Part shown: piece after piece, positions 8,963-24,940 of the stretch
Numbering within the stretch: position 1 is the stretch's first letter
How the letters are laid out: each line of letters opens with the position of its first letter
Assembly (NCBI GenBank): GCA_946557105.1
Contig: CAMNSZ010000007.1
Span: 1 to 64,000 of the forward strand
DNA length: 64,000 nucleotides
Reading direction: 5' to 3'
Source of the DNA: an uncultured Lachnospiraceae bacterium
GTDB lineage: Bacteria > Bacillota > Clostridia > Lachnospirales > Lachnospiraceae
The notes under the pieces: generated by a model
What the model saw: the letters and a program-made list of their open reading frames with translations, nothing else
Database searches by the model: none
What the model was told of the DNA's origin: nothing
Made by a program: the position numbers and the translations under genes

Positions 8963-9100
8963 GTCAGCTCCTATCCGACGCTTCTTACGCGCCTAAGTAA
9001 GACTTCTCCTGTACATCCCTCAAGCTAAAACGCTTAAAATATCGCCCTATTTTATGTATTCTGCGCGATTCCTTGAAATCCTTTTTTCCTATAAAAATAT

Positions 9101-9538
9101 TTAAAAAAATAATCTTTTACATTTTGCCGCCGCTTTAGACAAAGCCGGTCTTAAAGGACGCAAAAAGAGCCACAATCCTGCAGCCGTTCTATAAGCAATA
9201 TGATTAACGGAAAATTTTTTCCCTTTTCTTATAATTCCTACCAATACTCCTTTTATCTGCTCCCTGTTCAGCGGGCCTTCAATTTCACTCTGATTGTCGC
9301 CTACCATATAATAGGCCCCTCCCCTGCGTCTCCAGATGCGGTGCAGCACCAAAATTCCCTTGTCCCTGCGATACAAAACCACATCCCCCCGCTTAGGCGT
9401 CCTATCACCAATGGGCGCTATGACCGCCTCGTCTCTTTCCGGCACAAAAAGCGGATACATGCTGTAGCCCCAAGGCTTGAGCTGAACGGTTTTTCCCTCC
9501 GCTAAAAGTCTCTCCACATCCTTTTTATCCACTTTCAT
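9101..9538 (-). CDS. S24/S26-family (SipW-like Ser/His) peptidase of the peptide locus
   Basis: 145-residue signal-peptidase-like protein. The nucleophile box is GYSMYPLF near residue 24; GDVVLYRR follows, then LVLHRIW and VGDNQSEIEG. A His in the HR(I/V) position instead of the bacterial-type Lys is the hallmark of the S26B (SipW/eukaryotic SPC) branch, so a Ser-His dyad is likely. Unlike SipW there is no N-terminal membrane anchor; only a weakly hydrophobic C-terminal stretch (AAGLWLFLRPLRPAL) could touch the membrane. I start at 9538, where GGAGG lies just upstream, rather than 48 bases earlier. It is transcribed away from the PqqD/HPrK fusion gene. Such peptidases recur beside PqqD and HPrK-like genes; the likely role is leader removal, which is inference. 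Confidence 0.75.
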   Translation of the reverse strand: MKVDKKDVERLLAEGKTVQLKPWGYSMYPLFVPERDEAVIAPIGDRTPKRGDVVLYRRDKGILVLHRIWRRRGGAYYMVGDNQSEIEGPLNREQIKGVLVGIIRKGKKFSVNHIAYRTAAGLWLFLRPLRPALSKAAAKCKRLFF

Positions 9539-9575
9539 ACTAAACCTCCATGTCAGAGCTTTATTTTCCTTTTTC

Positions 9576-9609
9576 CATTGTAGCATTTCTCCCCATGTAA
9601 TGCTATAAT
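9576..9609. promoter_or_regulatory. Divergent extended -10 promoters between the S26 peptidase and PqqD/HPrK genes
   Basis: On the plus strand TGCTATAAT (9601-9609) is an extended -10 serving the gene at 9693. On the minus strand TGCTACAAT (9576-9584) is an extended -10 serving the peptidase gene. Both lack a good -35, which extended -10 promoters tolerate. The two start regions are only about 25 bases apart, so expression could be linked. Confidence 0.45.
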
Positions 9610-9692
9610 AATTTCATTAACAAACAACGGCTTTGGCGCGATAAATACGCATATTGTCGTAATAGCGCTTATATGACGGAAACGAGGAATTG

Positions 9693-10847
9693 ATGAAACA
9701 AAATGATTGTTATGTGCTAAAAAGAATAGCGGGGGTTCCCTACCTTCTTCCCGTCGGGCAAATGATAGGGGATTTTAAGCGTAGTATCCGAATTAACGAA
9801 ACAGGAGTCTATTTGTGGAAGCTGCTGGAAAAGGACCGCTCCCTTGAAGAACTGATACGGCTGTGCGCCTCTCATTATTCCATCAAAGAAGAAACGCTTC
9901 CCCAGTTGGAGAATGACGTCGCAGAATTTGTTTCCTCCCTGACGGCACAAGACATCCTTGTTCCGTCGCATACCGTCACGGATATAAAGAGCCCGTTCTA
10001 TAAATGTATTGAAATTGCCGGCTTAAGGTGTAAGCTCTATGGACCCAAGGAAGCCTTTTCTCAAAGCTTCAAGCCGTTTTTCTGTGAGTCCTGCGCCGAT
10101 TGTATACAAAACATCGAAGTTCTTTACCACCTTCCGGAAACGCTGGAAAACGGCAGACTGCTCTTAAGGAATCACGAGCTGTCCATTATCGAGCGGGGAG
10201 ATAAATACATTTTACTGTTTCCGGCGGCATGCCGGATTCTGGAAGCACACCTTACAAAGAGCGGCTCTCTCGCCAGATTTTACTGCCTGCCTCCCTTGAC
10301 AGACAGTCTTCGCAGCGATTTGTTCCATGCAATCCGCCTTGTCTGGCTTTATCTTGCCCAGCTGCACAATATGGCGGCGCTGCATTCCGCATCCGTTTTA
10401 TACCGTGGCCGTGCATGGCTCTTTTCCGGCTCATCGGGAACAGGCAAATCCACCCACACCAATCTGTGGAGCTCCCTTTATAATGTTCCGATCATAAACG
10501 GAGATTTAAATCTCCTCGCCATGGAAAACGGGCACGCGGTAGTTCACGGGATACCTTGGTGCGGAACCTCCGGAATATTTGACACTCACACCTATCCTTT
10601 GGGAGGTATTATCCTGCTCAGACAGGCTGACGGAGATTATGTGGAGAACCTGCCGGACGCCGAAAAACGTTTATTGGTGCTGCAGCGCCTTATCTCCCCC
10701 TCATGGACCAAGGCTCTCTTAAACCGCAATCTCGCTCTCATAAATTCTCTCGCACAGGACATAATGATATGCCGTCTGTGCTGCACGCCCCGAAATACTG
10801 CCGCCGAAACCGCCAAAAGGCAAATAGACAGCTTTCTGGACGCCTGA
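9693..10847 (+). CDS. PqqD/RRE domain fused to HPr-kinase-like P-loop kinase
   Basis: 384-residue fusion. Residues 1-95 form a PqqD-like winged helix, the RiPP recognition element fold that binds leader peptides (INETGVYLWKLLEK ... LIRLCASHYSI ... DVAEFVSSLTAQDILVP). A middle region (about 100-225) carries four Cys, including CESCADC. The C-terminal part is HPrK/lasso-kinase-like: HSASVLYRGRAWLFSG, the P-loop GSSGTGKST near residue 246, an INGDLNLL segment with a catalytic Asp candidate, and PWCGTSG. HPrK-like kinases in lasso-peptide clusters phosphorylate the precursor tail; normally the RRE protein is a separate polypeptide. Start ATG 9693 follows GAGG by 6 bases. It converges on the ABC exporter gene with a 30-base gap. 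Recognition of the 136-residue protein nearby is inference. Confidence 0.8.
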   Translation: MKQNDCYVLKRIAGVPYLLPVGQMIGDFKRSIRINETGVYLWKLLEKDRSLEELIRLCASHYSIKEETLPQLENDVAEFVSSLTAQDILVPSHTVTDIKSPFYKCIEIAGLRCKLYGPKEAFSQSFKPFFCESCADCIQNIEVLYHLPETLENGRLLLRNHELSIIERGDKYILLFPAACRILEAHLTKSGSLARFYCLPPLTDSLRSDLFHAIRLVWLYLAQLHNMAALHSASVLYRGRAWLFSGSSGTGKSTHTNLWSSLYNVPIINGDLNLLAMENGHAVVHGIPWCGTSGIFDTHTYPLGGIILLRQADGDYVENLPDAEKRLLVLQRLISPSWTKALLNRNLALINSLAQDIMICRLCCTPRNTAAETAKRQIDSFLDA

Positions 10848-10877
10848 CGGAAGGCTTCCGCTTGGAATCCTCCCGTC

Positions 10878-12653
10878 TTAAAATTCCCGAATCAAGGCTT
10901 CTATTTCTTCATCATTTAGCGCTGCGCACTGCCCCCTTCTGATAGCATATACGCGATTACACATGCTAAGCGCTGTAGGACGATGTGTGGTGACAATACA
11001 GGTGCGGGGATAATTGTCCTTCATTATATTCTTCAGCACTCTTCTCTCGGTGGCCACGTCCAACGCAGACGTCGCCTCATCCAAAAGCAAAAGCGGAGAT
11101 TTCCTCAACAGCGCCCTCGCTATGGAAAGCCTCTGCGCCTGCCCCTCGGAAAATCCCCCTCCCCTTTCTTTTACCACACTGTGTATTCCGTCGGGCAGCT
11201 TGCTTACAAAATCCCATGCACAGGCAAGCCTTAACGCATTTATTATCTCTTCCTCCGAGGCGTCCGGCTTCACATTGCGCAGATTTTCCGCAATCGTGCC
11301 CGAAAACATAGTGTTTCCCTGAGGCACATAAGAAAACAGCTTTCTTGTAGAGGGAGTCAGGGGAATGGAATCCGACTGCGTGTTTTTAGCTCCCCCGCAA
11401 AGAACCGCCTTTCCCTCCTGCGCCGTCACAAGCGACAGGATAAGACGCATCATGGTAGTTTTCCCTTCACCCGAGGGTCCTACCAGACCGATAATCTCAT
11501 GGGGATGTGCCTCCAGAGATACGTTTTCAAATACTTGCGTTCCCGTACGGTACGCATAGCTTATATCCTTAAGGCATAAGCTGATGCCCTCCTTCGCATA
11601 GGTCTTCCGAAATCTCTCCACCGCTTCGTCGCAAGTATAATCCTCTCTGGGCATTTCCACAATATCCATAAGTCTTCCGGCCGAGGTCATAAGACCGATT
11701 GCCATGGGTACGAGAGAGGTGAGATTATGCAGCGCCCCCGTGAGCGTTCCCGATAAGCTGAGAAACATTGTCATGGTTCCATAGGTAATCGCCCCGCTCC
11801 ATACTCTGTAGATCCCCCAGCCGTAGGCCGCATAGGACACCAAAAGCCCCACCGTGGACAATAAAAGCGAGGTGCCAATTGACATTTTTTTAAATTCCAG
11901 CTTCATATTGATATATTCCTTTTGAAGCTGCTTAAGCCTTGCCGCATAAAGTCTCACCAAATCAAAGGCCTTAATAATCTGAATATTGGAAAAGGTTTCC
12001 TGATTAAAGCCCGACATTTTAGCTCCCATCGCCGCACTTTTCTCATTATTGTTTACCATACGCCTCATCAGGGTCTTTGACAAAATAAGGCTGACCGGCA
12101 TACTTAAAAACGCAAAGCCCGCAAAAGACACATCATGATAAGCTACTACAGCAAAAGTACTGATAAATCGAAAAACATAAATAATAAGGTTCGGGAGAAA
12201 GTTCAGTACTCCGCTCGATATATTGGAAGCGTCCGAGCTCCACCTTGTCAGCAAATCCCCCGTATGATACCCCGTTAAGGCTTCCCAATCCGTCACCAAT
12301 ATCTTCTCAAAGATATCCGCTTTTATCTGCGCGTCTACCTTCATCCCAATCCAGCCCGACGCATAATCCGAAGCCATACTAACCAGCGTAGTACCCACAT
12401 TCAGCCCTATCATAATGCAAAATGTCTTAAGCACCATGCCTGTCTCATGTCCTGTGATAATGTCCACCAAATCCCTTGATACCAGACTTGCAGCAAGTGA
12501 AACAAGCGTTCCCAACAGTCCTAACAGAGTATAAAAAACCATTGCCAGCCAATAACGTTTGGCATAATGATAAATCCAGACCGTCTGCTTTTGCATCTCC
12601 TTCAATCTGCCGGACTTAATTCTCTCTATATAAAACTTTATTCTTCCGCCCAT
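10878..12653 (-). CDS. ABC exporter half-transporter (membrane + ATPase) of the peptide locus
   Basis: 591-residue type I ABC exporter subunit acting as a homodimer in the cytoplasmic membrane. About six membrane segments occupy residues 30-300. The ATPase shows Walker A GPSGEGKTTMM near residue 395, Q-loop region FSYVPQGNTMF, signature FSEGQAQRLSIARALL, Walker B LLLLDEATSAL and the H-loop VTTHR. There is no N-terminal C39 peptidase domain, unlike many bacteriocin exporters, so leader removal would need a separate protease such as the S26 enzyme at 9101-9538. It lies just after the terminator of the 136-codon gene. Substrate is inferred, not proven. Confidence 0.85.
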   Translation of the reverse strand: MGGRIKFYIERIKSGRLKEMQKQTVWIYHYAKRYWLAMVFYTLLGLLGTLVSLAASLVSRDLVDIITGHETGMVLKTFCIMIGLNVGTTLVSMASDYASGWIGMKVDAQIKADIFEKILVTDWEALTGYHTGDLLTRWSSDASNISSGVLNFLPNLIIYVFRFISTFAVVAYHDVSFAGFAFLSMPVSLILSKTLMRRMVNNNEKSAAMGAKMSGFNQETFSNIQIIKAFDLVRLYAARLKQLQKEYINMKLEFKKMSIGTSLLLSTVGLLVSYAAYGWGIYRVWSGAITYGTMTMFLSLSGTLTGALHNLTSLVPMAIGLMTSAGRLMDIVEMPREDYTCDEAVERFRKTYAKEGISLCLKDISYAYRTGTQVFENVSLEAHPHEIIGLVGPSGEGKTTMMRLILSLVTAQEGKAVLCGGAKNTQSDSIPLTPSTRKLFSYVPQGNTMFSGTIAENLRNVKPDASEEEIINALRLACAWDFVSKLPDGIHSVVKERGGGFSEGQAQRLSIARALLRKSPLLLLDEATSALDVATERRVLKNIMKDNYPRTCIVTTHRPTALSMCNRVYAIRRGQCAALNDEEIEALIREF

Positions 12654-12733
12654 ATTCCATTCTCCGGCAAAGAAACAAAGGTCGCATCATTGCCCTTTAC
12701 ATACCTTCTTATCACTATAATTTCCTTTTCGCT

Positions 12734-12764
12734 AAAAAGGAGGCTATGCGCACACATAACCTCC
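12734..12764 (-). terminator. Strong rho-independent terminator after the 136-codon gene
   Basis: Minus strand: GGAGGTTATG, a six-base loop, CATAGCCTCC (one G-U pair), then TTTTT. It lies 44 bases past the stop of the small gene and about 80 bases before the ABC exporter start, making the small gene a separate transcription unit. Confidence 0.85.
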
Positions 12765-12807
12765 TCTCATTCTACATAAGTCCAAATGCATAAAAGCCGG
12801 ATACAAC

Positions 12808-13218
12808 CTACCAAGTATGCTGATCACATTCTGCGTTACAATAGGTACATCTCACTCCTACAACGGCTAAGCCCTCACCTGCCGATACATACACGTCGCC
12901 TAAACCAATGTTGTCATATGCATTACTATGGTATGCATACGTCAGAATAAGCTTGGAGCTGCCGCTTCCCGATGCATTAGCTGCATTACTGCTGACATAA
13001 TCAACACTCTGATTAAAGGATAACTCTACTATCTGTACAGTAGCATGATGCCCGTCCGACGCTGCATGAGACGCATTAAGCTGGATAGTATAAGTTTCAC
13101 GTCCCGCCTGAGGAGACTGTGTTATCCTTGCATCCACAGTATAGCATCCACTTGCCGCGTATACTCCTTCCGCCAACTCGTCATTCACTAATACATACGG
13201 TTTTTCGTAAGTCTTCAT
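12808..13218 (-). CDS. Candidate leader-bearing secreted peptide/protein precursor (unknown family)
   Basis: 136 residues; I do not recognise the mature part. The N-terminus MKTYEKPYVLVNDELAEG is not a Sec signal (no hydrophobic core). It looks like a RiPP-type leader: Tyr4-x-x-Pro7 resembles the YxxP element of lasso leaders bound by PqqD-like domains, and it runs to a small-residue stretch VYAASGC (residues 19-25) that could be a signal-peptidase-like cleavage site. The rest is Ser/Ala/Gly/Thr-rich, predicted beta, with few charges, and ends in a Cys cluster RCTYCNAEC (Cys124, 127, 131) and HTW. It has AAGGAG seven bases before ATG, its own near-consensus promoter and a strong terminator, so high expression as a single gene is likely. 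It sits among a PqqD/HPrK fusion, ABC exporter, S26 peptidase and nucleotidyltransferase. Alternative: an ordinary small beta-sandwich surface protein. Confidence 0.65.
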   Translation of the reverse strand: MKTYEKPYVLVNDELAEGVYAASGCYTVDARITQSPQAGRETYTIQLNASHAASDGHHATVQIVELSFNQSVDYVSSNAANASGSGSSKLILTYAYHSNAYDNIGLGDVYVSAGEGLAVVGVRCTYCNAECDQHTW

Positions 13219-13271
13219 CCTCCCACTCCTTCCGATATATGTTTGTCAAATGTAACTTAATTATTATAATC

Positions 13272-13300
13272 AGTATAATAAATTATTATGCTAATGTCAA
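13272..13300 (-). promoter_or_regulatory. Near-consensus SigA promoter of the 136-codon gene
   Basis: Minus strand: perfect -35 TTGACA (13295-13300), 17-base spacer, -10 TATACT (13272-13277). Transcription should start near 13265, giving an untranslated leader of about 47 bases. Confidence 0.8.
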
Positions 13301-13401: not shown

Positions 13402-16197
13402 CTACCTCCTGTTTTTCTTAGAATTATTTTTATGCGCCTTAAAAAGCTTCATCTGTTCTATCATCCTGCCCCTCTGTCCCGCTTTTTCCAAGATGGCCAG
13501 AGTCGGGGTTCTCCTGATTTTTCTGTTATTCTGCATAAAACGTACCAAAGTAACCGTCCAGAGCGCCGGCCACAGCAAAGCGCATTTTCCGCTCTTGGGA
13601 AAATTCAAATGCATTTGATGATGAAATTCCCTTACATAATCAAACGCATCGCTCCCCCTAAGAGCCACCATCCTATCCGCGGCAGACTTGCCGAACTCCT
13701 CCGCCTCCAGCACCTCCAGAAGGAAACGCTTTGCATCATAGGTCGTCCGTATCTCCAGCCACTGCGCACGGCTTGGGCTAAGACCAAGATACTTGATACA
13801 GGCTAACGTTACCATATCCGAAAATCCCTTTATTCCGCTCTCCTTCACAAGTGTTAAATACTTGTCTCTCTCCTTTTGCGTTATCTCCCGGTTCCAAAAT
13901 ACCACCCAGTCACACAACAGCTTCAATCCAAAGCCCGACCGCAAAAAATGCTGCAGCATATGGAGCAAAAGCTCATAGGCATGATACGGCGTATCCAAAA
14001 CGGGAAGCTCCACGCCCATAATATGCTTCCGTTTTATATTTTCGGCACATTCCTCCAGCTTCCCCGCAAGATACTCGTTCATCCTGCCGTTGTCAAAGGG
14101 TTCGGCAAGCATAGTGTGAAGCTCTATCTCAATTCCTTCCGGCGAACGGTACACAATATGATGCAGAGACGGCTGTCTTGCCTGCAATACACAGCCGGCG
14201 CGCTCCAATACAATACCGGCAGCCTCCTCCCTCTTTGGCTCTAAAAGCAGCAAATCCACATCCCCTGATTTTCTGAGCTCCGGTACGGGATAGAACCCGG
14301 CGGTACCCACACCCTTCAGCAGCGCCACGGGAATTCCCTCTTCCTCCAGACGCTTTATCAGATACCGGCTTAAGAAAAGAAGATGATAGCTTTGCCTTAC
14401 CGTCATCCGGGCGCTCGTCTCCGCCTGCTTCCTCAGCCAATTCGGAACCTTCTCCCCCTCGACAAGAGAATGATACAAAAGCGGCAGCACCCCATGTCGT
14501 TGCGCCATGCGGGAAAGCTCCTCCCAATCTGAGGGAACCGTCTGCTTATACTGTCCGGTAAGTTCACCCTGCAACAGCTGTAACAGACACCTTTCCTCCG
14601 GGGAAAAGCCTGCATCCCTGTAAGCGTCCTCCTGCTCGCAGGCCTTGCGCTTCTCTGCCCTTTCACGCCGGTATTTTTTCACCAGCTGCACAGCCTTTTT
14701 CCACAACAGCCCAAATTCCTTTGTGCGGTGATAGAGAACCAGATAAACAAGATTAGCCGCAGCAAAGCATAAAAGCACGCGCAGCACGCACACTGCCCAC
14801 GGATTGCCCTTTATATTACCGCACACCGCATCCAAAACATACCAAAGCGCAAAGGTCACGGAGGCATACAGTAAATACCTCAGAAAATAGAATCTACAGG
14901 GCGCCTGCAGCCTGTGCTTGTACAACATATAAGGCTCCACCCACAGCGATGTGACAGCCGTACTCGCCATAGTGCCCAGAAAAACGCCTGCGGTTCCCAG
15001 ATACCTCCCCAGTATCAGAGAAACCACCAGATTAATCACGGCCTCCGCCAAAGATTTATATCTGTCATACCAAAAAAGTCCCATGGAATCCCGAAACACC
15101 AAAGAGGCCTGCCTCATTCCGGTAATATAAAAATTTAGGCATAATATCAATGTAACATTTCCTGCAAATACATACTGCCTTCCGAAGCTGAGTCCTACGA
15201 ACAGGTCGAGCGCCTCATACATGCAAATAGCCGCCAGACCATATATCCACTGACCCATAAAAAAGGAGGCCTCGAATATTTTTTTAATTCTGCTTCTGTC
15301 GGCCTCCACTCCCATATTGCCAACGCTTGCGGTAATTCCCTGAAACATCTGTTCCAGAACCTGCCTTACAGAGCCTATGATCAAAAAATAGTTTGAATAT
15401 CTTCCCACGCTGACCGTTCCGACCAACGCGGATAAAAGGAGATTGTCCGTGTTGTTGACTACCACATTTCCGATTTTGTGCATAAGCATGGCCCGTATAT
15501 TTTGGAAAATTCCCCGCCTTTCTTCATTTGACAAGCGCTCAACCCTTTTATCCTTAAGAAACGGATACATCCTATCCGCTTTGCGGGATATGCACACATT
15601 GTTAAGTATGGTACATATTATCAGAATAGACAGATATAATATAAAATTTCTTGTGGAGAGCAGCACTATAATCTGTAAAGTATTCTGCAACACCCATGAA
15701 AGCGTCTGATACAGTACCCCGATATAGCTAAGCTGATGCGCGTCGATTAACGTCCTTTTATAAATCCCAAGATAAGAAACCACCGAATTCGTCAGATACA
15801 TAATGTAAATCAGTGTCAGATGCCCTACCTTGGGCTGATCCTTGATCAGTAGGTCCATAAAGGGGATAACAAAGAGCCCTGCCGTAAGCACTATAACGGC
15901 AACTATTCTGTAAAAAGTCCTGTACAGCTTCATAAGGGACTTCTGCTTTTCCACATCCTTCTCGGATATCGGTTTATATAAGGCATATGTTATCGCCGTG
16001 CCGACTCCCAGCTCCGACAGCGCAAGCACGCTTAAAATATCCGTAAAAAGCCCGTTAATCCCCACATAATCCTCACTGAGCGTATGGGTAAATACAACTC
16101 TCGCCGCAAACCCCATCAATATAGCGCTTATTCTCGCTGCCATAGCCACAGTAGTGTTCCGTGCAGAGTACTCGGTTCTGCTCTTCTCCGTCGCCAT
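13402..16197 (-). CDS. Wzx-like polysaccharide flippase fused to NTP_transf_5-like nucleotidyltransferase
   Basis: 931-residue fusion. Residues about 15-495 are a MATE/Wzx-type polysaccharide flippase with roughly twelve to fourteen membrane segments (start SARNTTVAMAARISAILMGFAARVVF). A basic linker (KKYRRERAEKRKACEQED) follows. Residues about 530-890 resemble the nucleotidyltransferase family found in lasso-peptide and polysaccharide loci: LLYHSLVEGE, VALLKGVGTAGFYPVPELR and the metal-binding SGDVDLLLLEP. Such enzymes, with HPrK-like kinases, have been reported to add sugars to phosphorylated lasso peptides, so a transferase working at a lipid or peptide phosphate is possible. It is the last gene of the long minus-strand operon. 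Start ATG 16195-16197 has GGAGGGAG upstream. Confidence 0.78.
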   Translation of the reverse strand: MATEKSRTEYSARNTTVAMAARISAILMGFAARVVFTHTLSEDYVGINGLFTDILSVLALSELGVGTAITYALYKPISEKDVEKQKSLMKLYRTFYRIVAVIVLTAGLFVIPFMDLLIKDQPKVGHLTLIYIMYLTNSVVSYLGIYKRTLIDAHQLSYIGVLYQTLSWVLQNTLQIIVLLSTRNFILYLSILIICTILNNVCISRKADRMYPFLKDKRVERLSNEERRGIFQNIRAMLMHKIGNVVVNNTDNLLLSALVGTVSVGRYSNYFLIIGSVRQVLEQMFQGITASVGNMGVEADRSRIKKIFEASFFMGQWIYGLAAICMYEALDLFVGLSFGRQYVFAGNVTLILCLNFYITGMRQASLVFRDSMGLFWYDRYKSLAEAVINLVVSLILGRYLGTAGVFLGTMASTAVTSLWVEPYMLYKHRLQAPCRFYFLRYLLYASVTFALWYVLDAVCGNIKGNPWAVCVLRVLLCFAAANLVYLVLYHRTKEFGLLWKKAVQLVKKYRRERAEKRKACEQEDAYRDAGFSPEERCLLQLLQGELTGQYKQTVPSDWEELSRMAQRHGVLPLLYHSLVEGEKVPNWLRKQAETSARMTVRQSYHLLFLSRYLIKRLEEEGIPVALLKGVGTAGFYPVPELRKSGDVDLLLLEPKREEAAGIVLERAGCVLQARQPSLHHIVYRSPEGIEIELHTMLAEPFDNGRMNEYLAGKLEECAENIKRKHIMGVELPVLDTPYHAYELLLHMLQHFLRSGFGLKLLCDWVVFWNREITQKERDKYLTLVKESGIKGFSDMVTLACIKYLGLSPSRAQWLEIRTTYDAKRFLLEVLEAEEFGKSAADRMVALRGSDAFDYVREFHHQMHLNFPKSGKCALLWPALWTVTLVRFMQNNRKIRRTPTLAILEKAGQRGRMIEQMKLFKAHKNNSKKNRR

Positions 16198-16209: not shown

Positions 16210-17229
16210 TTATATGATTTCAAAGGCTGATTTTCGGGGCAGTATCTGCTCAAAGGCTCCTTGTATTTCCTCCTTGGCTTCTTGAAACTCACCGCCCGTC
16301 CATGTGTCATTGATACAAATTATCCTGCATTTTTGCTTTCTGATTACCTCCGCCAGCTTTTTATTATCGGAGGCAATCTCAAAATATTTAAAATCCTTCA
16401 ATATATTTTTAGGCCTAAAATTACCGGACAGCTTCTGCCACTCCCTGAACAGATACGGCGTCACGTCGTCCTCATTGCGGAACCGGTTATGAGACGTCTT
16501 TTTCAAAAGCTCCCCCTCCTTATTCCACAGCTCTTCAAAGGTTCCCCTGACAAAGGGAGAAGGTCCGTGCACCGTGTAAAAACCTGTGTACAGAGGGAAA
16601 GCAAGCTCCAATATATTATAAAAGAAATATAAAAAGGGGTATCCTATTTTAAAATATCCTCCCGGATTCCTGCGCACGCATTCTCTCTTGTTAAAATGCC
16701 TGGACAGCACCAGCGAATTGTTTAAAAACAAATGTGACATCACCGGATTTTTGGGATTTGCCACTACCGGCTGAAACGCAAGCATATCACAGGGCTTTGC
16801 TCCCTCGAAAAAAGCTTGGGGCTTCACCCTGTCTATCAGAAACATATCGTCGTTAAAATAGACGAAATGCTCCGACAGCCCCTCTATTCTGTGAAGGAAC
16901 AGCTCCAACACATTACTGTTGAAGGTGGGCAGAAATTCCTCCGGAATATAATCCTCATGCCTGACTATATGAAGCTTCGGATTTTGAATATCCAGCCACT
17001 TAGGCAGATGCCCCCATGTAATAAAATGGATTTTTCTGACCCACGGCGCATATTCTTCCACTCCCCTGAACCAATATTTTAACAGCCCCCAGTCCCTGTA
17101 CCTCTCCTCATGATTATCCTCTTTACAATCCTGCTTATATTCCTTTCTCTGTCTGTTCCATGCCTCGTCGGCGCCGTCCACCCATGTGACCACAAAATCT
17201 ATATCATACTGCATTTCATTAGCCTTCAT
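16210..17229 (-). CDS. Stealth-family sugar-phosphate transferase
   Basis: 339-residue member of the Stealth family, enzymes that transfer hexose-1-phosphate from UDP-sugars to make phosphodiester-linked glycans. CR1 is clear (IDFVVTWVDGADEAW). CR2 follows (RYRDWGLLKYWFRGVEEYAPW ... FNSNVLELFLHRI ... FVYFNDDMFL). CR3 is GPSPFVRGTFEELW with RNEDDVTPYLF, and a CR4-like CINDT lies near the C-terminus. I start at 17229: its ATG overlaps the upstream gene's TGA by four bases (ATGA). A TTG start 27 bases earlier has poor spacing to its ribosome site. In this operon it suggests that phosphodiester bonds occur in the glycan or on an acceptor. Confidence 0.88.
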   Translation of the reverse strand: MKANEMQYDIDFVVTWVDGADEAWNRQRKEYKQDCKEDNHEERYRDWGLLKYWFRGVEEYAPWVRKIHFITWGHLPKWLDIQNPKLHIVRHEDYIPEEFLPTFNSNVLELFLHRIEGLSEHFVYFNDDMFLIDRVKPQAFFEGAKPCDMLAFQPVVANPKNPVMSHLFLNNSLVLSRHFNKRECVRRNPGGYFKIGYPFLYFFYNILELAFPLYTGFYTVHGPSPFVRGTFEELWNKEGELLKKTSHNRFRNEDDVTPYLFREWQKLSGNFRPKNILKDFKYFEIASDNKKLAEVIRKQKCRIICINDTWTGGEFQEAKEEIQGAFEQILPRKSAFEII

Positions 17230-18731
17230 TTCAGTTCTCTTCTCCACTGCCTCCAACCCTCCAAAAACGTCTCCACAGGTTCAAGGCTTATCAGCCCCAC
17301 CTTATAGCCGTATTCCTCCGGGTCCTGCTCATTAGCCAGAAGGATCCTCTCCCTCGAAGCACAATCCCTGATGTCAAAATAAACCTCATATTCCCCTGCA
17401 GTCATCCCTGTTAAAGGAATCTCCTGAAATATGGTGTAAATCATATTTGAATCGTTTCCGCCGGAAAGCTCACGCAAATCACCGTCAGTCTCATAATAAT
17501 GCACGGCGCCGCTTACTTTATCCTTCAGTATAATCCATACTCCGGCTTCGTGATAAACGGGAGCAAACCCCACATTCCGCAAAGCAACCGCTACCGACAG
17601 CCTATCCTTGGCAAACGCATAGTCAAACGACGCATCGTCGATGAACAGCCTGTACCCCAAATGCCTTTCTATATAAGATAAGCCGTCCATACCCTGAAAA
17701 CAGCCCTCCTCAGCCACCGTTACCCCTGCCCATTTATCAAGCACCTTTCTGTCATAATCCTTATTGAGATAGGTGACGTGCATCCGTCTCATATCCTGCA
17801 CTGCGTTTTCAAAATCATTATAAGGATTATCCACGATTACCTCGCCTCCTATAGGCACGCTTTTACAAAGAATCTCCTGAAATTCCAGTTCCTGCTCCCT
17901 GTTCCAATATGTAAAATAACCGTGCTCCTCCTTGGTATGCTCGCCGTAAGTACCGTAATCGCTCCAGCTGCCCAGCATCCCGTCGTTAAACAAGCCCAGC
18001 CGAGAGGCAAGCGAACCGTCTCCTCTCACTACCTCCTCCGCCTCCTTGATCTGCGTTACCATACGCCACTGCATGGGCATGCGCACGGACAAAAAGGTAG
18101 ATTCATCCGTCGCCTCCGCCAGCTCCCTTGCCAAAACCTGCATATCCTGAGGATTGGAATATTTCGTACCGTTCATTTCCCCCCAATTACCTATAAACAA
18201 CCCCTGCATAACAAATATCCTGTCCTTATACTTGCGCAGAGCAGGCCCCACCTGACGGATATGCTCCAAAATCACTTCAACATTTTCCGGCTCATACTTC
18301 TCGTTCTCCCCGTTCCAATCATAGAGAAATCTAACGATTAACTGTTTATCAACCTGCTCCAGCGCCATAAACAACGCCTCCAGATTTTCAAGACCCTGCT
18401 GAGAAATCGGCCTGTCCTTGAAATATTGCAGATTAAACTCTATCATAGTCAGCTTCGTCTCGTCATCCCGGCAGAACCTATCGGCAATATTTTGTCGAAA
18501 ATCTGTTTCGTCGTCATTGATGTGAAAACCATGCATATAATAGAATCCCCTATTGGGATTATACAGCCTGCGCGCGGATTCCGTGAAGGAATAGCTCTCT
18601 GTAATTACGTTTCCGTGCCCCCTCGAAAGAAGGAGCCTGTCTCCCGCCTTAAACAATAATACTGCAAGGACGACTACGACAATCAATACAAATGCGCGTA
18701 TAATGCCTCTTCTCAACCAATGTTCCCTCAT
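17226..18731 (-). CDS. DUF4832/DUF4874 membrane-anchored glycoside-hydrolase-like protein
   Basis: 501 residues. One N-terminal membrane anchor (residues 9-29) places the rest outside the cell. The body matches the DUF4874-DUF4832 pair often seen in exopolysaccharide loci: LYNPNRGFYYMHGF at the start, GLFIGNWGEMNG in the middle, LGLFNDGMLGSWSDYGTYG, and MRRMHVTYLN. These resemble TIM-barrel glycosidase active-site loops, but no activity can be assigned. A C-terminal beta domain follows (about 370-490). It is a paralogue of the gene at 21191-22507 and overlaps the Stealth gene by four bases. Confidence 0.75.
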   Translation of the reverse strand: MREHWLRRGIIRAFVLIVVVVLAVLLFKAGDRLLLSRGHGNVITESYSFTESARRLYNPNRGFYYMHGFHINDDETDFRQNIADRFCRDDETKLTMIEFNLQYFKDRPISQQGLENLEALFMALEQVDKQLIVRFLYDWNGENEKYEPENVEVILEHIRQVGPALRKYKDRIFVMQGLFIGNWGEMNGTKYSNPQDMQVLARELAEATDESTFLSVRMPMQWRMVTQIKEAEEVVRGDGSLASRLGLFNDGMLGSWSDYGTYGEHTKEEHGYFTYWNREQELEFQEILCKSVPIGGEVIVDNPYNDFENAVQDMRRMHVTYLNKDYDRKVLDKWAGVTVAEEGCFQGMDGLSYIERHLGYRLFIDDASFDYAFAKDRLSVAVALRNVGFAPVYHEAGVWIILKDKVSGAVHYYETDGDLRELSGGNDSNMIYTIFQEIPLTGMTAGEYEVYFDIRDCASRERILLANEQDPEEYGYKVGLISLEPVETFLEGWRQWRRELK

Positions 18732-18743: not shown

Positions 18744-21188
18744 CTACTGTATCGCCAGCTGATACAGCCTTAAAACATTTTGTCTGAAATAATAGCATAC
18801 AAAATCATCATCCTCATAATATGTGTGCAACTCTCCCGGATACAGCCGTTCAAATTCCCTGCACCAATTATACAGTCTGGCTTCCAAAGCCGTACGCGTT
18901 TCCAAATTAGAATATATCCGGGAGGAGTTCTGAAATTTCCCCCGATAATTATCCGCCTCGCCTCTTTCTATATCCGAAGCCGTAATATCCGGGCACTGAC
19001 TTACAAAGGAATTGTAATATGCGGGATACTTCTCCCATGCAAGCCATTCGGGACCGCCGAAGAAATGACTCTGCGCATATTCCAGAGGCTTCTTCTCCAC
19101 ATAGATAAACACATATTCCGTGGGAAGCGTATAATCCTTATCCTGACTTTTATTCACGAAATCTATTGCCTCCTCGTGAAATCCATATTGAATCATGTGA
19201 TACAGCTCATCCACCGTTGACACAATGGTATAGTTGTTTTTGGGCAGTTCCTGCGTAATGGCGCTGGTCATCATAACCGCAGCGTTATACCTTGTCAGCT
19301 CATAATACAGATAGCCGTGAAAGCTTCCTGTCATTATGGCCCCCGCATAAATTCCCGCCACACAAAGCGCCGCTGCAGCCTTCATGACTCCCTGATGCAC
19401 CACAAAACTGACGGCGGTAAATAAAAGATCAACCGGCACCACCATCACGGAAACAATCAAAAGCTGAGCCACCGAACAAAGTCTGGAACCGGCGACCAAG
19501 GACGGCAGCCCCAGAGCGCCTGCACAGTACATCGCCATAAAAATCACGGAGGCTAATGTCAGGGAAAAATATCGGTCAAAATAATTTGCGGCTATTTTCT
19601 TTCTTTTGCGCAATATTAGCTTAAGCAGAGTAGCAATCACCCTGTATACCAGCCATAATGCCAGCGCCAGCGCCGTAAATCCCAGTATCACGTCGGCGCT
19701 CGTCCGTCTATATAAAGTGACATATGATTTATCATACAGGATTTTTGCCTTCTGCCGTATTACATGGGTCAGCCTTCCGGCTAAATTCTGCAGCCTCTCC
19801 CCAAAGGAAGGCTCAGGCTGTATAACGCTTTGTTCGGGAAGCTTTTCCTCAAGTGGCAGGCTTACCTCATCGTTTTCTTTATTTTGGGCGCCGCCGAAAA
19901 TATTGCCCGTGATTTCCTCTCCTGTGTTTTCATCCACCACGATATTTCCGCCGCTCTCGCCGTCCGTGCCGTTGATAACATTCACCGCCCAGCCTATGGA
20001 CCCCTGAAAGGGAATACCCGAGGCAAGGGCGCCCGCCATGGGCAGCACTGCAATAAAAAATCCGCAGCATACCCCCGCCGCCAACGGTACAAACCGCTTG
20101 AGACGAAAAACCTTATTTAACTCCATGGGAACAAATGCCGCACAGAGGAAAAACGCCATGATAGTGACGTAAAAATGAATGGCAAGGGAGGCGGCAAGCG
20201 CAAACATAAAGACAAGAAGATTTCCGTCCCAATAAAATCTTGTCAGCTTATCCGTCCTCTTCTTAAAAAACAGCTTTGCCTTGGGTATCCTTCCTGCCTC
20301 CCGAAGATATTTCAAGAAAAACGCCGCGCACAAAAACTGGGTATAAAGTGCAAATTCCTGAGGGATAGTCCATTGCAGGCGGGACATACTGTATATCTCG
20401 TCAATACATACCACTTCAAGCGTAAGAAACAGCGTAAGCGCAAGCATAGGCGCATACCTCCAGCGAAACACCTCCCTTAGCAGGATATATGCCGACAGCA
20501 GAAATACTGCGATATGAATGCCCGCCGCAAAGAGCAGGCAGCTGTAAATCCTGATTCCGAACAGAGTATGGAGCGCGTAAAGAAGACAGTGCATACCCTC
20601 GGGATACACGCCCGCAGAGAAGATTTTTCCTTGGGTAAGCCCATAAATCCACGCATTATGGGGATACATATCACCGAAACCGTAGGAGAAATCCTGAAAG
20701 GCTCCATAGGTAAAATAAATCATACCATACACGACAATAACGGCAAGCAGCCCGTATTCCCATACATGGCCCTTTACCAGACTGCAAAAGCTCTTAAAGC
20801 ATATACGCATTCCCTTTCTTATCAGAATGACGCCGTCTTTTAAGAAGGTCTTAATACCATAGGTTCCGTTTGTCAGATAATGCAGCTTTTTTATTGTCCT
20901 TTTGTCAATCCTTATCCGCCTTGCGATACAGAACAAAAAAATCCCGTAAAATATCGCTCTCACCGTAAAAGGATACAGCAAATGCACCAGTCCCAGAACT
21001 AGTACCGCCGTATTTACAACTATCGGCTGTACCGTAACACAGAAGGCAAAATAAAAGGTCTTGGACCTTCCCTTCAGATAGTTCCGGAAAACTACGCAAG
21101 GCCAGATAAACATAATAAACATATATGCAAAAAATACTTTTCCGTATTCCAGCGCCCAATATAATGTAGTCAAAAATCCATCTCCCAA
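18744..21188 (-). CDS. Large polytopic membrane protein of the polysaccharide operon
   Basis: 814 residues with about a dozen predicted membrane segments, concentrated at residues 15-300 and 520-640. A long hydrophilic insert (about 400-480), with acidic and Asn-rich stretches, separates the two halves. A soluble C-terminal part follows (LYHMIQYGFHEEAIDFVNKSQ ... LYPGELHTYYEDDDFVCYYF). The topology resembles GT-C glycosyltransferases or Wzy-like polymerases, but I see no decisive motif. It sits 3 bases from the DUF4832 paralogue upstream and 13 bases from the one downstream, suggesting the three products work together in polymerising, modifying or exporting the glycan. Confidence 0.6.
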   Translation of the reverse strand: MGDGFLTTLYWALEYGKVFFAYMFIMFIWPCVVFRNYLKGRSKTFYFAFCVTVQPIVVNTAVLVLGLVHLLYPFTVRAIFYGIFLFCIARRIRIDKRTIKKLHYLTNGTYGIKTFLKDGVILIRKGMRICFKSFCSLVKGHVWEYGLLAVIVVYGMIYFTYGAFQDFSYGFGDMYPHNAWIYGLTQGKIFSAGVYPEGMHCLLYALHTLFGIRIYSCLLFAAGIHIAVFLLSAYILLREVFRWRYAPMLALTLFLTLEVVCIDEIYSMSRLQWTIPQEFALYTQFLCAAFFLKYLREAGRIPKAKLFFKKRTDKLTRFYWDGNLLVFMFALAASLAIHFYVTIMAFFLCAAFVPMELNKVFRLKRFVPLAAGVCCGFFIAVLPMAGALASGIPFQGSIGWAVNVINGTDGESGGNIVVDENTGEEITGNIFGGAQNKENDEVSLPLEEKLPEQSVIQPEPSFGERLQNLAGRLTHVIRQKAKILYDKSYVTLYRRTSADVILGFTALALALWLVYRVIATLLKLILRKRKKIAANYFDRYFSLTLASVIFMAMYCAGALGLPSLVAGSRLCSVAQLLIVSVMVVPVDLLFTAVSFVVHQGVMKAAAALCVAGIYAGAIMTGSFHGYLYYELTRYNAAVMMTSAITQELPKNNYTIVSTVDELYHMIQYGFHEEAIDFVNKSQDKDYTLPTEYVFIYVEKKPLEYAQSHFFGGPEWLAWEKYPAYYNSFVSQCPDITASDIERGEADNYRGKFQNSSRIYSNLETRTALEARLYNWCREFERLYPGELHTYYEDDDFVCYYFRQNVLRLYQLAIQ

Positions 21189-21190
21189 CG

Positions 21191-22507
21191 TTATCCTTGT
21201 CTCTTAAGGCAGCCTAAAGCAATCCTGCCCGCCCTGCCGGAGCTGTTTGCAAAATACAGGGGTCTTTCGTCACGCTTAAGCCTTGCTCTCAGAAACAGCA
21301 TGCCTTCGTCGGCTTCTATCGTACACACCGCCTGCCCCGCGCTCCCTCCCGCAAGCTTCCGCATGTCAAAGTCAATCCGCTTACTTTTCTCGTTTCCCTC
21401 CCCGTCCTTCCATTCCAGACACAGCTCCGCCTCCTGATATAGGCTGGCAAAGCCTAAATTTTTTATTTCAATCCCCAACCGGCACATAGTCTCGGGGCAC
21501 TGGTCCTTTACAGGCAGTATGGCAACGCTTTTAACCCAGAAACGATAGCCCAGATGCGCGCCGATATATTCGTACAGCTTCCTTCCCGCCCACACCCCCT
21601 TGCCTTCATAGACGGTTTTTTTCCAGCTGTCCAAAAGCTTGGCGTCATATTTACTGTTCAGATAAGTAATATGCATACTTCTTAAGTCCTTCAGCAGCTG
21701 CTCCTGACTCATCCCCTCCGAATATCCCTCTCCGTAGACCGCCTCGCCTCCGTTGGGAACATTCTTACATAATATGTCCTCAAACGCAAGCTCTTCCTCC
21801 CTGCTCCATGCGCTATGTTCACCCACGGTATCCCTCGTCTGAGTTCCGAAGGTTCCCAGATTGCTGGGCGAACCGAACATTCCGTCGTCGAACAGTCCCA
21901 TGTCCGGCAAATCTCCGGGTTCGTTCAGCATTCTCCAATAAACAGGACGTCTGACTGCCAAAAATGTTCCCTCTCCGATATTCTCTCGCAAAACGGCCGC
22001 CATCTGTTTCAGATACCCACAAGACACAAAACGCGAAGTGTGCATTTCTCCCCAGTTTCCGATAAGCAGCCCCTGATAAATAAAGACAGCGCCACTAACC
22101 TCCTTAAGGATTTCCCCCACCTGCGTTATGTGCCTCACTATTTGAGAAAATAGAGAGGGCTCCTTCTCCATCGCCCTGCCCTCGTGGTCATAGGTCACAC
22201 GCAGTATAATATCCTTTTTATTACGGATAAAAAATGCCAGAATTGCTTTGATTCGCTCGACAGACGGCAAATCCAAATCCCTGCTTTGAAAACTGCCAAT
22301 GTCAATCAAAATCAACGCTAATGTCTCGCTTTCGTCAAGACAATACTCAAGCTGCTTAAAGTCAGGATCTTTTTCCGCCTCAAAGGTAAAGATACTGTAC
22401 CAGCCCCTCAGAGGATTATAAAGCAACTCCGTCGACTCTGTAAAATCCGCTTTCTGGAGCCCCCATTTCTCTTTTCCGCAAAACAGCCTACGAAGCGTTT
22501 CCTTCAT
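21191..22507 (-). CDS. DUF4832-like protein without membrane anchor
   Basis: 438 residues, paralogous to the product of 17226-18731. It shares LLYNPLRGWYSIF, QGLLIGNWGEMHT, MGLFDDGMFGSPSNLGTFG, NVPNGGEAV and LRSMHITYLNSKYD in the same order. In contrast to its relative it has no clear signal peptide or anchor: the N-terminus MKETLRRLFCGKEKWGLQ is basic and polar, so it may stay in the cytosol or bind the membrane through a partner. It overlaps the upstream GT2 gene by 20 bases. Function is unknown; a glycosidase-like fold is inferred from the family. Confidence 0.7.
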   Translation of the reverse strand: MKETLRRLFCGKEKWGLQKADFTESTELLYNPLRGWYSIFTFEAEKDPDFKQLEYCLDESETLALILIDIGSFQSRDLDLPSVERIKAILAFFIRNKKDIILRVTYDHEGRAMEKEPSLFSQIVRHITQVGEILKEVSGAVFIYQGLLIGNWGEMHTSRFVSCGYLKQMAAVLRENIGEGTFLAVRRPVYWRMLNEPGDLPDMGLFDDGMFGSPSNLGTFGTQTRDTVGEHSAWSREEELAFEDILCKNVPNGGEAVYGEGYSEGMSQEQLLKDLRSMHITYLNSKYDAKLLDSWKKTVYEGKGVWAGRKLYEYIGAHLGYRFWVKSVAILPVKDQCPETMCRLGIEIKNLGFASLYQEAELCLEWKDGEGNEKSKRIDFDMRKLAGGSAGQAVCTIEADEGMLFLRARLKRDERPLYFANSSGRAGRIALGCLKRQG

Positions 22508-23270
22508 TCCTTACCTCCGTATCCACATGAAATAATCTTATCCGCAGCCAGACGGCTATAATGGAAAACATCATGCGGAACATATATATCACCGGCTTAA
22601 GACCCGAGTGCATGCTGATACCTTCGGTTCTCACATGCATCAGCGCCGGAATCTCCTCCACCTTAAAGCCCAATAGCAGCATCTGTGTAATCATATTGGC
22701 GTCAGGATATTTATCGTCGAAATGATTATAGCGGGCATAATAGGTAAACGCTCTTCTGCTCAAGCCCTGAAGCCCTGTTGTGGGATCCATGATTTTCTTT
22801 CCCGTTCCTATCTTAATCAGAGCCCTAAATAGCTTATAGGCAATTTTCTTTACCAAGGAGACCGGATAACCTACGCTCCCCTCCACAAACCTTGAGCCTA
22901 GAACAATATCGGGATATTTCCCGTTTTCGTCCGCCGTTTTCAGACAGCGCAGAATCGTTTCCACGTTACAGGCGTCATGCTGCCCGTCCGCGTCCATCTG
23001 AATCACATAGCGGTATTTTCTCTCCGCGGCATATTTATACCCTACCTGAAGCCCGCTTCCATATCCCAGATTATACACGTGGTTCACCACGGCATGGCCT
23101 CTTTCCAAAACTATTTTCCCAGTATTGTCCTTAGAAGCATCATTCATAACCAAAATATCTGCCTTCTCCGAAATCTCCGGCTGCTCAAGCCGGTCCAGAA
23201 GGGCCCCAATGGTCTTTTCTTCATTATACGCCGGTATAATAACAAGCAGCTCCTTATTTTGGCCACCCAT
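22488..23270 (-). CDS. GT2 glycosyltransferase (polyprenyl-phosphate sugar synthase type)
   Basis: 260-residue GT-A fold glycosyltransferase of the DPM1-like branch. Motifs: LLVIIPAYNEEKTIG at the N-terminus, DILVMNDASKDNTG, YVIQMDADGQHD (DxD metal site) and IVLGSRFVEGSVGYPVS, followed by MDPTTGLQGLSRRAF. No membrane segments like those of larger family members are present, apart from a moderately hydrophobic C-terminus. It likely charges a polyprenyl phosphate with a sugar for membrane-side transfer. DUF2304 proteins, like that at 24545-24940, commonly pair with this enzyme type. Confidence 0.85.
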   Translation of the reverse strand: MGGQNKELLVIIPAYNEEKTIGALLDRLEQPEISEKADILVMNDASKDNTGKIVLERGHAVVNHVYNLGYGSGLQVGYKYAAERKYRYVIQMDADGQHDACNVETILRCLKTADENGKYPDIVLGSRFVEGSVGYPVSLVKKIAYKLFRALIKIGTGKKIMDPTTGLQGLSRRAFTYYARYNHFDDKYPDANMITQMLLLGFKVEEIPALMHVRTEGISMHSGLKPVIYMFRMMFSIIAVWLRIRLFHVDTEVRNEGNAS

Positions 23271-23284: not shown

Positions 23285-24484
23285 TCAAATCATAGAAAGC
23301 AGCTTTTCTATCTGCATTTCATCCTCTGCATTTCTTTTTTGTGCCTCCGTTCCCAGACGGATTCTCATTTCTTCATCATGTATAAGCTTCATAATTCCAC
23401 AATATATTCCCTCCGGCGTCAGTCGGCACATCAGCCCGTCGACCTCTGGAACTACCTGTTCCCTGTTGCCGCTGCAATCAGATACCAGAATGGGCTTGCC
23501 CAAAATCTGCGCCTCCTGTATTGCAATGCTTTTCCCCTCAAAGCGACTGGCATGTACATAAATATCCGCCTGCGCCATATAAGGATAGGGATTATCCACC
23601 GCTCCGGGCATCAGAAAATCCTCCTCCAGACCCAGCTGCTTTATCTTTTCCTCCAGACTCTTTCTCTGGTCGCCGTCGCCCAGAACATACCAACGTACCC
23701 TCTCCCCCTTATCCTTTAAAAGCTTCATTGCATCGATGGATACTTCAAATGCCTTTTGGACTGTAAGTCTTCCCACGGACAAAATGCGCACTCCGGCATA
23801 GCCGTCTCTAAATCCCCCCGGCAGCTGCGCTTTACTGCGAATTCTCTCACGATTTACTATGTTATGAAACACCTCTGTCCTGTCCTCACATTCGGGATAT
23901 ACATTTACAAAAGCGCTTCTCACCTCATCGGAAACCGTAAACACCTTGTCAAAGCCTAAGTAACAGACTCTATCCAGCTCTCTGGTGTAGCCTGCTTTTT
24001 CATAATCCACATGGATAAACGCCGCCTTCCTGTCCGCTTTCACATGGTCTGCAACGTAATATGCGGAACCTCCCTCCAGATATGCCACCGCAAGGTCGAA
24101 ACGGGCGTCAAAACGTTCTCCTCCGTCCGACAACGCCCTCCAGAGGAGTTTATCAAGAAGCACCTGCTTCTTCTTAAGCATGGCAAAAAAGTTTTTGATA
24201 ATATAAGGAAACAGCCGTATCACCGTTCCCCGGGAAAACAGCGCGCGCAGAACATTTTTCCTAAGACCGCCCTTTCCCTCACTGCTCAACACGGATACCG
24301 GGTCAAAGCGCTTGTTTAAAAGCTTAACGTTCTGCGGAAGCTCATGTACCATTTCTCCCTGCCCCATCAACACATATAGGGAAATCTCGTATTCCATAGG
24401 CTCCATGCAGCGAAGCAGCTCCAACAGAGCCGTCTCGGCGCCGGCATGCCCCAGCGTATTTATAACAAACAAAATCTTTTTCAT
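23285..24484 (-). CDS. GT4 glycosyltransferase
   Basis: 399-residue GT-B fold glycosyltransferase. The N-terminal half begins KKILFVINTLGHAGAETALLELL. The C-terminal nucleotide-sugar half has ILSVGRLTVQKAFEVSIDAM, WYVLGDGDQRKSLE and the GT4 loop ASRFEGKSIAIQEAQILGKPIL with the two conserved Glu. I start at 24484, with GAGG seven bases upstream; an ATG six bases earlier is possible. The donor and acceptor cannot be told. It is a member of the long polysaccharide operon. Confidence 0.85.
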   Translation of the reverse strand: MKKILFVINTLGHAGAETALLELLRCMEPMEYEISLYVLMGQGEMVHELPQNVKLLNKRFDPVSVLSSEGKGGLRKNVLRALFSRGTVIRLFPYIIKNFFAMLKKKQVLLDKLLWRALSDGGERFDARFDLAVAYLEGGSAYYVADHVKADRKAAFIHVDYEKAGYTRELDRVCYLGFDKVFTVSDEVRSAFVNVYPECEDRTEVFHNIVNRERIRSKAQLPGGFRDGYAGVRILSVGRLTVQKAFEVSIDAMKLLKDKGERVRWYVLGDGDQRKSLEEKIKQLGLEEDFLMPGAVDNPYPYMAQADIYVHASRFEGKSIAIQEAQILGKPILVSDCSGNREQVVPEVDGLMCRLTPEGIYCGIMKLIHDEEMRIRLGTEAQKRNAEDEMQIEKLLSMI

Positions 24485-24544
24485 TTCCATACCTCATATC
24501 GCTCCGCCGGACTATTGTGCATCCAAAGTCTCTTTTTACAGGCT

Positions 24545-24940
24545 TTAGTTGATATTGTCCAGCCTTTCGACAATTTCCTCAAGCTTCTTTTTCAGCTCGT
24601 CCTTCTCATGGTTTAACAACGACACCTGCATGGAAAGCTCCATGTTCTTTCTCATCAACTCTGACACCTTACTGCTCATAAAATATGCTCCATATATAAT
24701 GCAGAAGCCGATAAGCAAAAGAAGCAGCATACCCATAGCGCTTATGTACCTGTTCCACTCCGCAGGCCGCAGCAAAATACCCGCCAGAATAATAATGATG
24801 GCTATCATTCCCCATGTCAGACAAAAGGACTCTGTCATTTTTCTTTTAGCCAGAGACGATACCACTGCTATCAGAAGATAAAGGCCCACTACAATCATTA
24901 TAATCTGCAAAATTGATCCCGGTTCCATAAATCCTACCAT
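24545..24940 (-). CDS. DUF2304 membrane protein
   Basis: 131 residues with three hydrophobic segments (about 9-30, 42-60, 68-90) and a C-terminal coiled coil (SKVSELMRKNMELSMQVSLLNHEK is its start). This is the architecture of DUF2304 proteins, which accompany polyprenyl-phosphate glycosyltransferases and may anchor or regulate them. The start overlaps the pelG stop (ATGGTAG). An internal ATG at 24928 is an alternative. Confidence 0.7.
   Translation of the reverse strand: MVGFMEPGSILQIIMIVVGLYLLIAVVSSLAKRKMTESFCLTWGMIAIIIILAGILLRPAEWNRYISAMGMLLLLLIGFCIIYGAYFMSSKVSELMRKNMELSMQVSLLNHEKDELKKKLEEIVERLDNIN

Follow-up and report, generated by a model that had tools for sequence, protein, structure and literature searches.

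A putative leader-guided maturation and export system for folded secreted proteins within a Pel-like exopolysaccharide locus of an uncultured Lachnospiraceae bacterium

Contig CAMNSZ010000007.1 of GenBank assembly GCA_946557105.1 belongs to an uncultured Lachnospiraceae bacterium, and its first 64,000 nucleotides (hereafter the window) contain a cassette of genes of types that recur in loci for ribosomally synthesized and post-translationally modified peptides (RiPPs), together with an operon resembling those for the exopolysaccharide Pel. A preliminary description had confined the locus to positions 9101 to 13300 and had named four genes: a peptidase, a fusion of PqqD and HprK domains, an ATP-binding cassette (ABC) exporter, and a 136-residue protein. 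All four are present at 9101-13218, but those limits are too narrow. The unit appears to extend to about 33200 and includes features that had been overlooked, namely a fusion of NTP_transf_5 with a flippase, a second RiPP recognition element (RRE) at 32922-33200, and the Pel-like operon between them. Throughout, L numbers denote sequence stretches (loci) fetched from the genomes of relatives and G numbers denote genomes. The cassette comprises the following features.

9101..9538, minus strand: putative S26B (SipW/LppS-like) leader peptidase, Ser/His/Asp invariant in relatives; the longest open reading frame (ORF) starts at 9586
9693..10847 (start 9690/9693), plus strand: PqqD-type RRE fused to an HprK-like kinase, 385 aa; Pfam PqqD, conserved P-loop
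10878..12653, minus strand: MsbA-like ABC exporter; ABC_membrane and ABC_tran over cut-off
12808..13218, minus strand: precursor protein, 136 residues, leader plus core
13147..13218, minus strand: precursor leader, 24 residues (YxxP ... EGVYAASG)
12808..13146, minus strand: precursor core, 112 residues, modeled as a beta-sandwich
13272..13300, minus strand: promoter-like site of the precursor gene, 11/12 matches in a promoter scan
13402..16197, minus strand: Wzx-like flippase fused to NTP_transf_5 (PF14907, E 8e-40 at the C-terminal part); N-terminal flippase half below cut-off
16210..17256, minus strand: Stealth-type sugar-phosphate transferase; Stealth_CR2 E 2e-44

The peptidase ATG at 9538 is favored over the longest-ORF start because a GGAGG ribosome site precedes it. 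The protein has no Pfam family at E 1 and a weak NCBIfam signal-peptidase match below cut-off (E 5e-4), and its S42, H82, and D97 are invariant across 17 aligned rows, the window among them. In the fusion protein, the PqqD domain occupies residues 24-90 (Pfam, E 2.5e-11); the kinase half scores below the Pfam and NCBIfam cut-offs, with GxxGxGKST (the P-loop), NGDxNL, and GxPWxGTS conserved in 16 rows, again including that of the window. No C39 peptidase domain is listed for the exporter in the Pfam/NCBIfam scan, in agreement with its earlier portrayal as lacking a peptidase domain of its own. The separate promoters once proposed are weakly supported, with 20 promoter-like hits compared with 13.1 (standard deviation 3.7) in shuffled sequence and a single 11/12 box 54 bp ahead of the precursor gene. 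Assignment of the kinase to the NCBIfam HprK-related kinase A equivalog (HPr-rel-A, TIGR04352) was rejected at 14.9 bits against a cut-off of 200.

The precursor leader is common to 60 distinct proteins, whose cores range from 53 to 147 residues and fall into 13 BLASTP groups. Leader position 23 is Ser in 60/60, although the extraction pattern permitted S, A, or C, and YxxP is found in 59/60. In the structure model of the window protein, residues 1-23 are disordered (predicted local distance difference test, pLDDT, below 50), whereas the core is modeled as a beta-sandwich with CBM2 as the nearest fold in a comparison of the predicted model. The product looks, in the model, like a folded domain of ∼110 residues and not a short peptide. 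For a second core type (A5, four rows), structure prediction gave a pLDDT of 33 and was not used. One congeneric pair, L034/L035, has an identical leader, a core of 51% identity, and seven flanking genes of 88-99% identity (five at least 95.9%), with the DNA break falling at the core, a core exchange behind an unchanged leader (9799-10215 in L034, 9794-10222 in L035). Excess change of the core is absent from two further congeneric pairs (G043/G359 lay outside the comparison), and hypervariability is therefore not claimed as a general feature.

Variants of the leader occur as well. Proteins with NE[FY]VAACGD (L140 2106-2522, L144 9894-10316, and L141 11830-12243) carry Cys in place of the junction Ser, resembling a lipobox without a signal peptide. 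Leader proteins in L049, L050, L209, L210, L211, L212, L213, and L214, where the kinase and S26 peptidase are absent from the stretch fetched, are possible clients served in trans.

The leader and the fused kinase occur in nearly the same genomes. Among 397 same-family genomes, treated as independent in all counts, leader proteins are present in 23, the fused PqqD-HprK gene (counted at E 1e-90 or better) in 23, and both in 22 (Fisher 7e-34), which argues that the gene set is not a chance assembly. Homologues standing without partners in most genomes had been named beforehand as evidence against a common system; instead, the 23 leader-bearing genomes represent 19 genera by our own count, and 22 of them have the kinase. 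At E 1e-10, 92/397 genomes match the fused kinase, mostly through separate kinases that belong to other systems. In G146 (68% complete) leader proteins occur without a fused kinase at the cut-off. G096 has the fused kinase and, in the 18 kb fetched, the exporter and a protein (E 1e-3) that carries AEGIYAGSG and lacks YxxP. This last protein lies between exporter and kinase (L207, 7681-8169), in a genome without PelG. G023 (60% complete) and G049 have full-length fused genes of greater divergence, at about E 1e-60 and below the cut, with no other cassette part within the 18-20 kb fetched.

Neighboring genes were counted within 10 kb of 46 distinct fused kinases (three duplicates dropped), giving an exporter at 44, S26 peptidase at 40, leader protein at 36, and NTP_transf_5 at 28. 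The corresponding counts are 18, 16, 14, and 9 at the 19 kinase loci with at least 7 kb on both sides. A leader hit was the reason for fetching the first 20 stretches, which favors the leader count; the 24 distinct loci retrieved through the kinase alone, several of them cut by contig ends, have 22 exporters, 21 S26 peptidases, 16 leader proteins, and 12 NTP_transf_5 domains. Fused-type kinase domains form one clade (support 100/99 in a tree of 113 rows) made up of 45 fused kinases and L136, whose gene is cut by a contig end; G023 and G049 are outside the tree. The peptidases of these loci also cluster, with weaker support and one foreign row in the group. The system is found in Lachnospiraceae and some Erysipelotrichaceae. 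The congeneric genome G344 has neither leader, kinase, nor PelG, and its 5.3 kb before dgt, inspected as a possible empty site, has no match to the window; in G022 the cassette adjoins its Pel genes, on a different contig from dgt.

The region after the Stealth gene, which includes the Pel-like operon of the window, comprises the following features.

17226..18731, minus strand: DUF4874/DUF4832 protein (Pfam)
18744..21188, minus strand: large membrane protein (judged by eye), no Pfam family, recurring in relatives
21191..22507, minus strand: second DUF4874/DUF4832 protein (Pfam)
22488..23270, minus strand: glycosyltransferase family 2 (Pfam)
23285..24490, minus strand: glycosyltransferase family 4-like (Pfam)
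24934..26400, minus strand: PelG (PF16933, E 3e-149)
26407..27894, minus strand: PelF-like glycosyltransferase (DUF3492 and Glycos_transf_1)
27919..29748, minus strand: DUF2194 protein within the Pel operon (Pfam)
29764..30663, minus strand: protein at the PelE position, putative by place alone, no family over cut-off
30660..32840, minus strand: PelD-like protein with N-terminal epimerase domain
32922..33200, minus strand: discrete PqqD-type RRE, 92 aa (PF05402, E 1.5e-15, over cut-off), 82 bp upstream of pelD on the same strand

The PelD-like protein has Epimerase over cut-off (E 1e-17) and DUF4118 below it, a domain order that matches the clostridial PelD described in the main text of PMC7112168. 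The discrete RRE lies ∼22 kb from the PqqD-HprK fusion gene. Farther along the window, positions 48000-50000 have a low G+C of 0.318, compared with 0.43-0.50 over most of the window, and contain a 433-aa ORF (48540-49841, plus strand); this is perhaps acquired DNA.

PelG is present in 70/397 genomes, including 23/23 with a leader protein and 47/374 without. It shares a contig with the kinase in 19 of the 22 genomes that have both leader and kinase, 8.2-19.0 kb away, and lies on a different contig in G025, G240, and G389; in Anaerobutyricum hallii DSM 3353 the two are ∼14 kb apart on one contig. That the set is almost always found with Pel genes suggests that the secreted proteins and the polysaccharide are made together. 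Twenty Pel loci with the cassette were fetched along with 20 controls without it, hand-picked from the 47 genomes and in several cases of a plainer Pel type lacking DUF2194 or GT matches. In 16/20 readable cassette genomes and 0/12 readable controls (Fisher 1.6e-5), a same-strand RRE precedes pelD by no more than 82 bp, as judged by a profile made from cassette loci that could miss remote RREs, and this adjacency argues for more than a shared habitat. Among the cassette exceptions, G029 has its RRE 505 bp from pelD, and G043, G304, and G389 have none; the count leaves out G025 (cut) and G146 and G240 (not fetched). The other eight controls, six with a pelD match lacking its start and two without a pelD match, showed no RRE beside pelD. 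In one control locus, L251, pelD is preceded by an NTP_transf_5 gene, and an RRE/S26/HprK set of another kind lies 15 kb on.

Fusions of NTP_transf_5 with a flippase occur in the window, L112, L113, L115, and L264, fusions with a glycosyltransferase family 2 (GT2) domain in L117 and L131, and one with a Stealth domain in L120, as recognized by Pfam in the window, L112, L117, L131, and L120 and by local profiles in the others. NTP_transf_5 and flippase are separate neighboring genes in several relatives, and the pattern GDxD is found in 22/28 strong NTP_transf_5 domains. Such attachment to sugar-handling domains is an argument that the transferase has sugar or sugar-phosphate partners. In the pathway for pseudomycoidin, PsmN, annotated as a nucleotidyltransferase, adds hexoses to phospho-Ser (PMC9266682), and PsmN is probably of the PF14907 kind.

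The gene set, the conserved leader, the co-occurrence, the Pel linkage, the RRE-pelD adjacency, and the NTP_transf_5 sugar-domain fusions are direct observations. They are best accommodated, with a probability of about 0.6, by a system in which a leader guides folded secreted proteins through maturation and export, one that is related to the clusters for linear polyphosphorylated peptides (LPPs) and built into a Pel-like exopolysaccharide locus. In the chemistry that we infer, the fused PqqD-type RRE would bind the YxxP motif of the leader and the HprK-like domain would phosphorylate the invariant Ser23 at the leader-core junction, after which NTP_transf_5, possibly aided by the flippase and Stealth proteins, would add a sugar or sugar-phosphate to the Ser23 phosphate. 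In favor of this reading, the P-to-Ser spacing is 16 residues, and that of the LPP consensus 15. The ABC exporter would move the protein out and the S26B peptidase would remove the leader near EGVYAA/SG, in either order. The mature core would most likely be a matrix or surface protein made together with a Pel-type polymer, and through the discrete RRE ahead of pelD the same leader would be tied to the polysaccharide machinery. If the LPP motif Fx[T/A] is taken as a guide, a cut at [YF]xA/SG would make Ser23 the first core residue; a signal-peptidase-like cut, VYA/ASG, is an alternative, against which speaks the Leu, Met, or Thr at position 21 in 11/60 leaders. Sister lineages with Cys or Tyr at the corresponding position weaken a simple Ser-kinase model. 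The RiPP-like character proposed in the preliminary description, with phosphorylation instead of cyclization, is well supported by the company of leader, RRE, kinase, exporter, and peptidase; the product, however, resembles a folded domain. A more speculative and rather doubtful extension is that phospho-Ser at the core start is the attachment point of a Pel-type or Stealth-made glycan, so that a phosphodiester would join small folded proteins covalently to exopolysaccharide, and the RRE ahead of pelD would pass leader-bearing proteins to the polysaccharide synthase. If true, this would be a RiPP-derived pathway for coupling proteins to slime.

The nearest rival would make the system a true member of the LPP family that chanced beside Pel genes, its product a phosphorylated signaling or antimicrobial protein and its polysaccharide link a matter of shared habitat alone. 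The LPP cluster of Paenibacillus alginolyticus was published in Nature Communications in May 2026, and according to the main text of that report (PMC13381572) such clusters encode an SpI-like LppS, a discrete RRE (LppB), an HprK-like LppK, an NTP transferase (LppN), and an MsbA-like LppD. The same five enzyme types and a YxxP leader are present in the window, LPP clusters are likewise embedded in polysaccharide loci (PMC13381572, main text), and the window-type system is patchily spread, in 23/397 genomes and with the congeneric G344 lacking its hallmarks, all of which would fit membership. The LPP leader consensus, YxxPxVLxHQxIxFETxxS, is nonetheless not matched by window-type leaders: FET occurs in 0/60, and Glu stands at the place of its F in 60/60 (conditioned by the extraction pattern that all 60 matched). 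The RRE-pelD adjacency also speaks against mere cohabitation, and the kinases and peptidases of FET-type loci described below lie far from the window lineage on long branches. Membership is accordingly considered unlikely.

Two further readings are still less probable. The kinase and RREs could form a regulatory module that controls Pel synthesis, the small protein being a phosphorylated regulator that is not exported; the main text of PMC7112168 does suggest protein phosphorylation as a control for a CotH-like gene near Pel, and an RRE does stand beside pelD, but an exporter near 44/46 kinases, a leader peptidase near 40/46, and 13 core groups are unlike a single regulator, and little weight is given to this model. 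The cores could instead be variable conflict proteins, such as phage receptor decoys or polymorphic surface or toxin-like proteins, exported by a common leader, with Pel as the surface that carries them. The many core groups and the exchanged core of L034/L035 would suit such proteins, whereas the two other pairs compared, with no excess core change, would not, and no toxin or immunity family is listed for the 16 window proteins scanned; this too is improbable.

Most of what is known about RiPP leader and RRE machinery concerns short bioactive peptides. In window-type loci the machinery appears to act on folded proteins, ∼100 residues long and drawn from many sequence families, and to have a gene-by-gene linkage to an operon for a biofilm polysaccharide. 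This suggests a way in which gut Firmicutes could furnish their matrix with proteins. The tight Pel link, found also in a culturable gut commensal, A. hallii DSM 3353, makes the roles of LPPs and of PF14907 transferases testable.

Comparison with the LPP system tempers the earlier claim of an unrecognised class, which holds only in that the window represents a sister variant. In the main text of PMC13381572, LppK phosphorylates core Ser3, LppS and LppB cut the leader after RRE presentation, YxxP is required for RRE binding, and LppS, a homologue of SipW, requires S29, H68, and D93; a deletion of lppN was without visible effect, and the end product of the LPP pathway was not found. The NTP transferase of that paper is probably PF14907, and a profile derived from NTP_transf_5 matches in the FET-type loci L228 (G493) and L229 (G407), where a precursor fits the LPP consensus (YVKPMII....FETLVS). 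The window likewise has an archaeal-type SpI-like peptidase with Ser/His/Asp, an HprK-like kinase, an NTP transferase, an MsbA-like exporter, no cyclase, and a YxxP leader with a variable C-terminus, with one to three precursors per locus. Unlike LPP clusters, window-type loci have an RRE fused to the kinase, usually with a second RRE at pelD, a leader ending in ...EGVYAASG instead of ...FETxxS, long cores in many groups, a Pel operon as companion, and in some loci a transferase fused to a flippase, GT2, or Stealth. The FET-type kinase and peptidase rows of L228 and L229 do not group with the window's, although their placing is rough. A second system in the same stretches has the leader ...ENVFT[KN]C, and its peptidase matches that of the window much better (in L228, E 2e-44 for the ENVFT-type and E 7e-7 for the FET-type), and the window is therefore assigned to a sister lineage. 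With no FET motif, an RRE-kinase fusion, and a kinase clade of its own, the window system is, on sequence grounds, a sister variant of LPP and not a member.

L228 seemingly contains three leader systems at 4372-13151, with WxxP lasso-like, FET-type LPP, and ENVFTKC-type precursors. The LPP system is described in the main text of PMC13381572 as restricted to Bacillota, with 126 SpI proteins; no word beginning Clostridi or Lachnospir occurs in that main text, and some of the 126 may still be from Lachnospiraceae. In contrast with this restriction, an HprK-like kinase and an S26-like peptidase occur together in L138, L142, L143, L145, L147, L153, L157, L159, L172, L181, and L187, which are from Bacteroidota and one Fibrobacter metagenome-assembled genome; all of them except L187 also have an RRE, and some have NTP_transf_5. 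A second RiPP-like locus of the window's own genome (L203, contig C20, 4943-13745) has a discrete RRE, an HprK-like kinase, a radical-SAM-looking protein (by eye), an S26-like peptidase, two ABC exporters, and NTP_transf_5.

Paeninodin-like phosphorylated lasso peptides (PadeK, PsmK/PsmN) resemble the window in their HprK-like kinase, NTP-transferase-type gene, and RRE. The window differs in a leader motif with Y instead of W and in having no short core with a C-terminal Ser. A lasso peptide was rejected, as no macrolactam cyclase or B2 peptidase family was found among the 16 proteins scanned (9.1-32.8 kb), and the absence of a lasso cyclase noted earlier is thereby upheld.

The Gram-positive Pel locus is pelDEADAFG, with an epimerase-PelD form in clostridia and with DUF4832 and CotH kinase accessory genes; the Pel genes of Roseburia lie within a cluster of capsule or teichoic-acid-like type (PMC7112168, main text). 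The window shares PelF, PelG, PelD with an N-terminal epimerase, and the DUF4832 gene with that description, and departs from it in the DUF2194 protein at the PelADA place, the RRE gene before pelD, and the RiPP-like cassette; the protein at the PelE place has no family over cut-off. The term PqqD occurs 0 times in the main text of PMC7112168. A literature search for PqqD with Pel and RiPP terms returned only titles on other subjects, a text search for the leader strings VYAASG, EGVYA, and VFAASG gave no paper on such a system, judged by listing, and the literature searched contained no account of the Pel link, an RRE upstream of pelD, or many folded cores. A PDB sequence search matched the fused RRE to TbiB1 (E 0.0087) and the discrete RRE of L151 to TbiB1 and TfuB1, with nothing useful for the peptidase, kinase half, or core and no LppB structures among the matches.

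In the SipW-TapA-TasA system of Bacillus subtilis, too, beta-rich secreted proteins have a dedicated S26B peptidase, with a link to biofilm exopolysaccharide, and in this respect the system is a parallel to the window. TasA has a Sec signal peptide, whereas in window-type loci an RRE, a kinase, and an ABC exporter would act instead.

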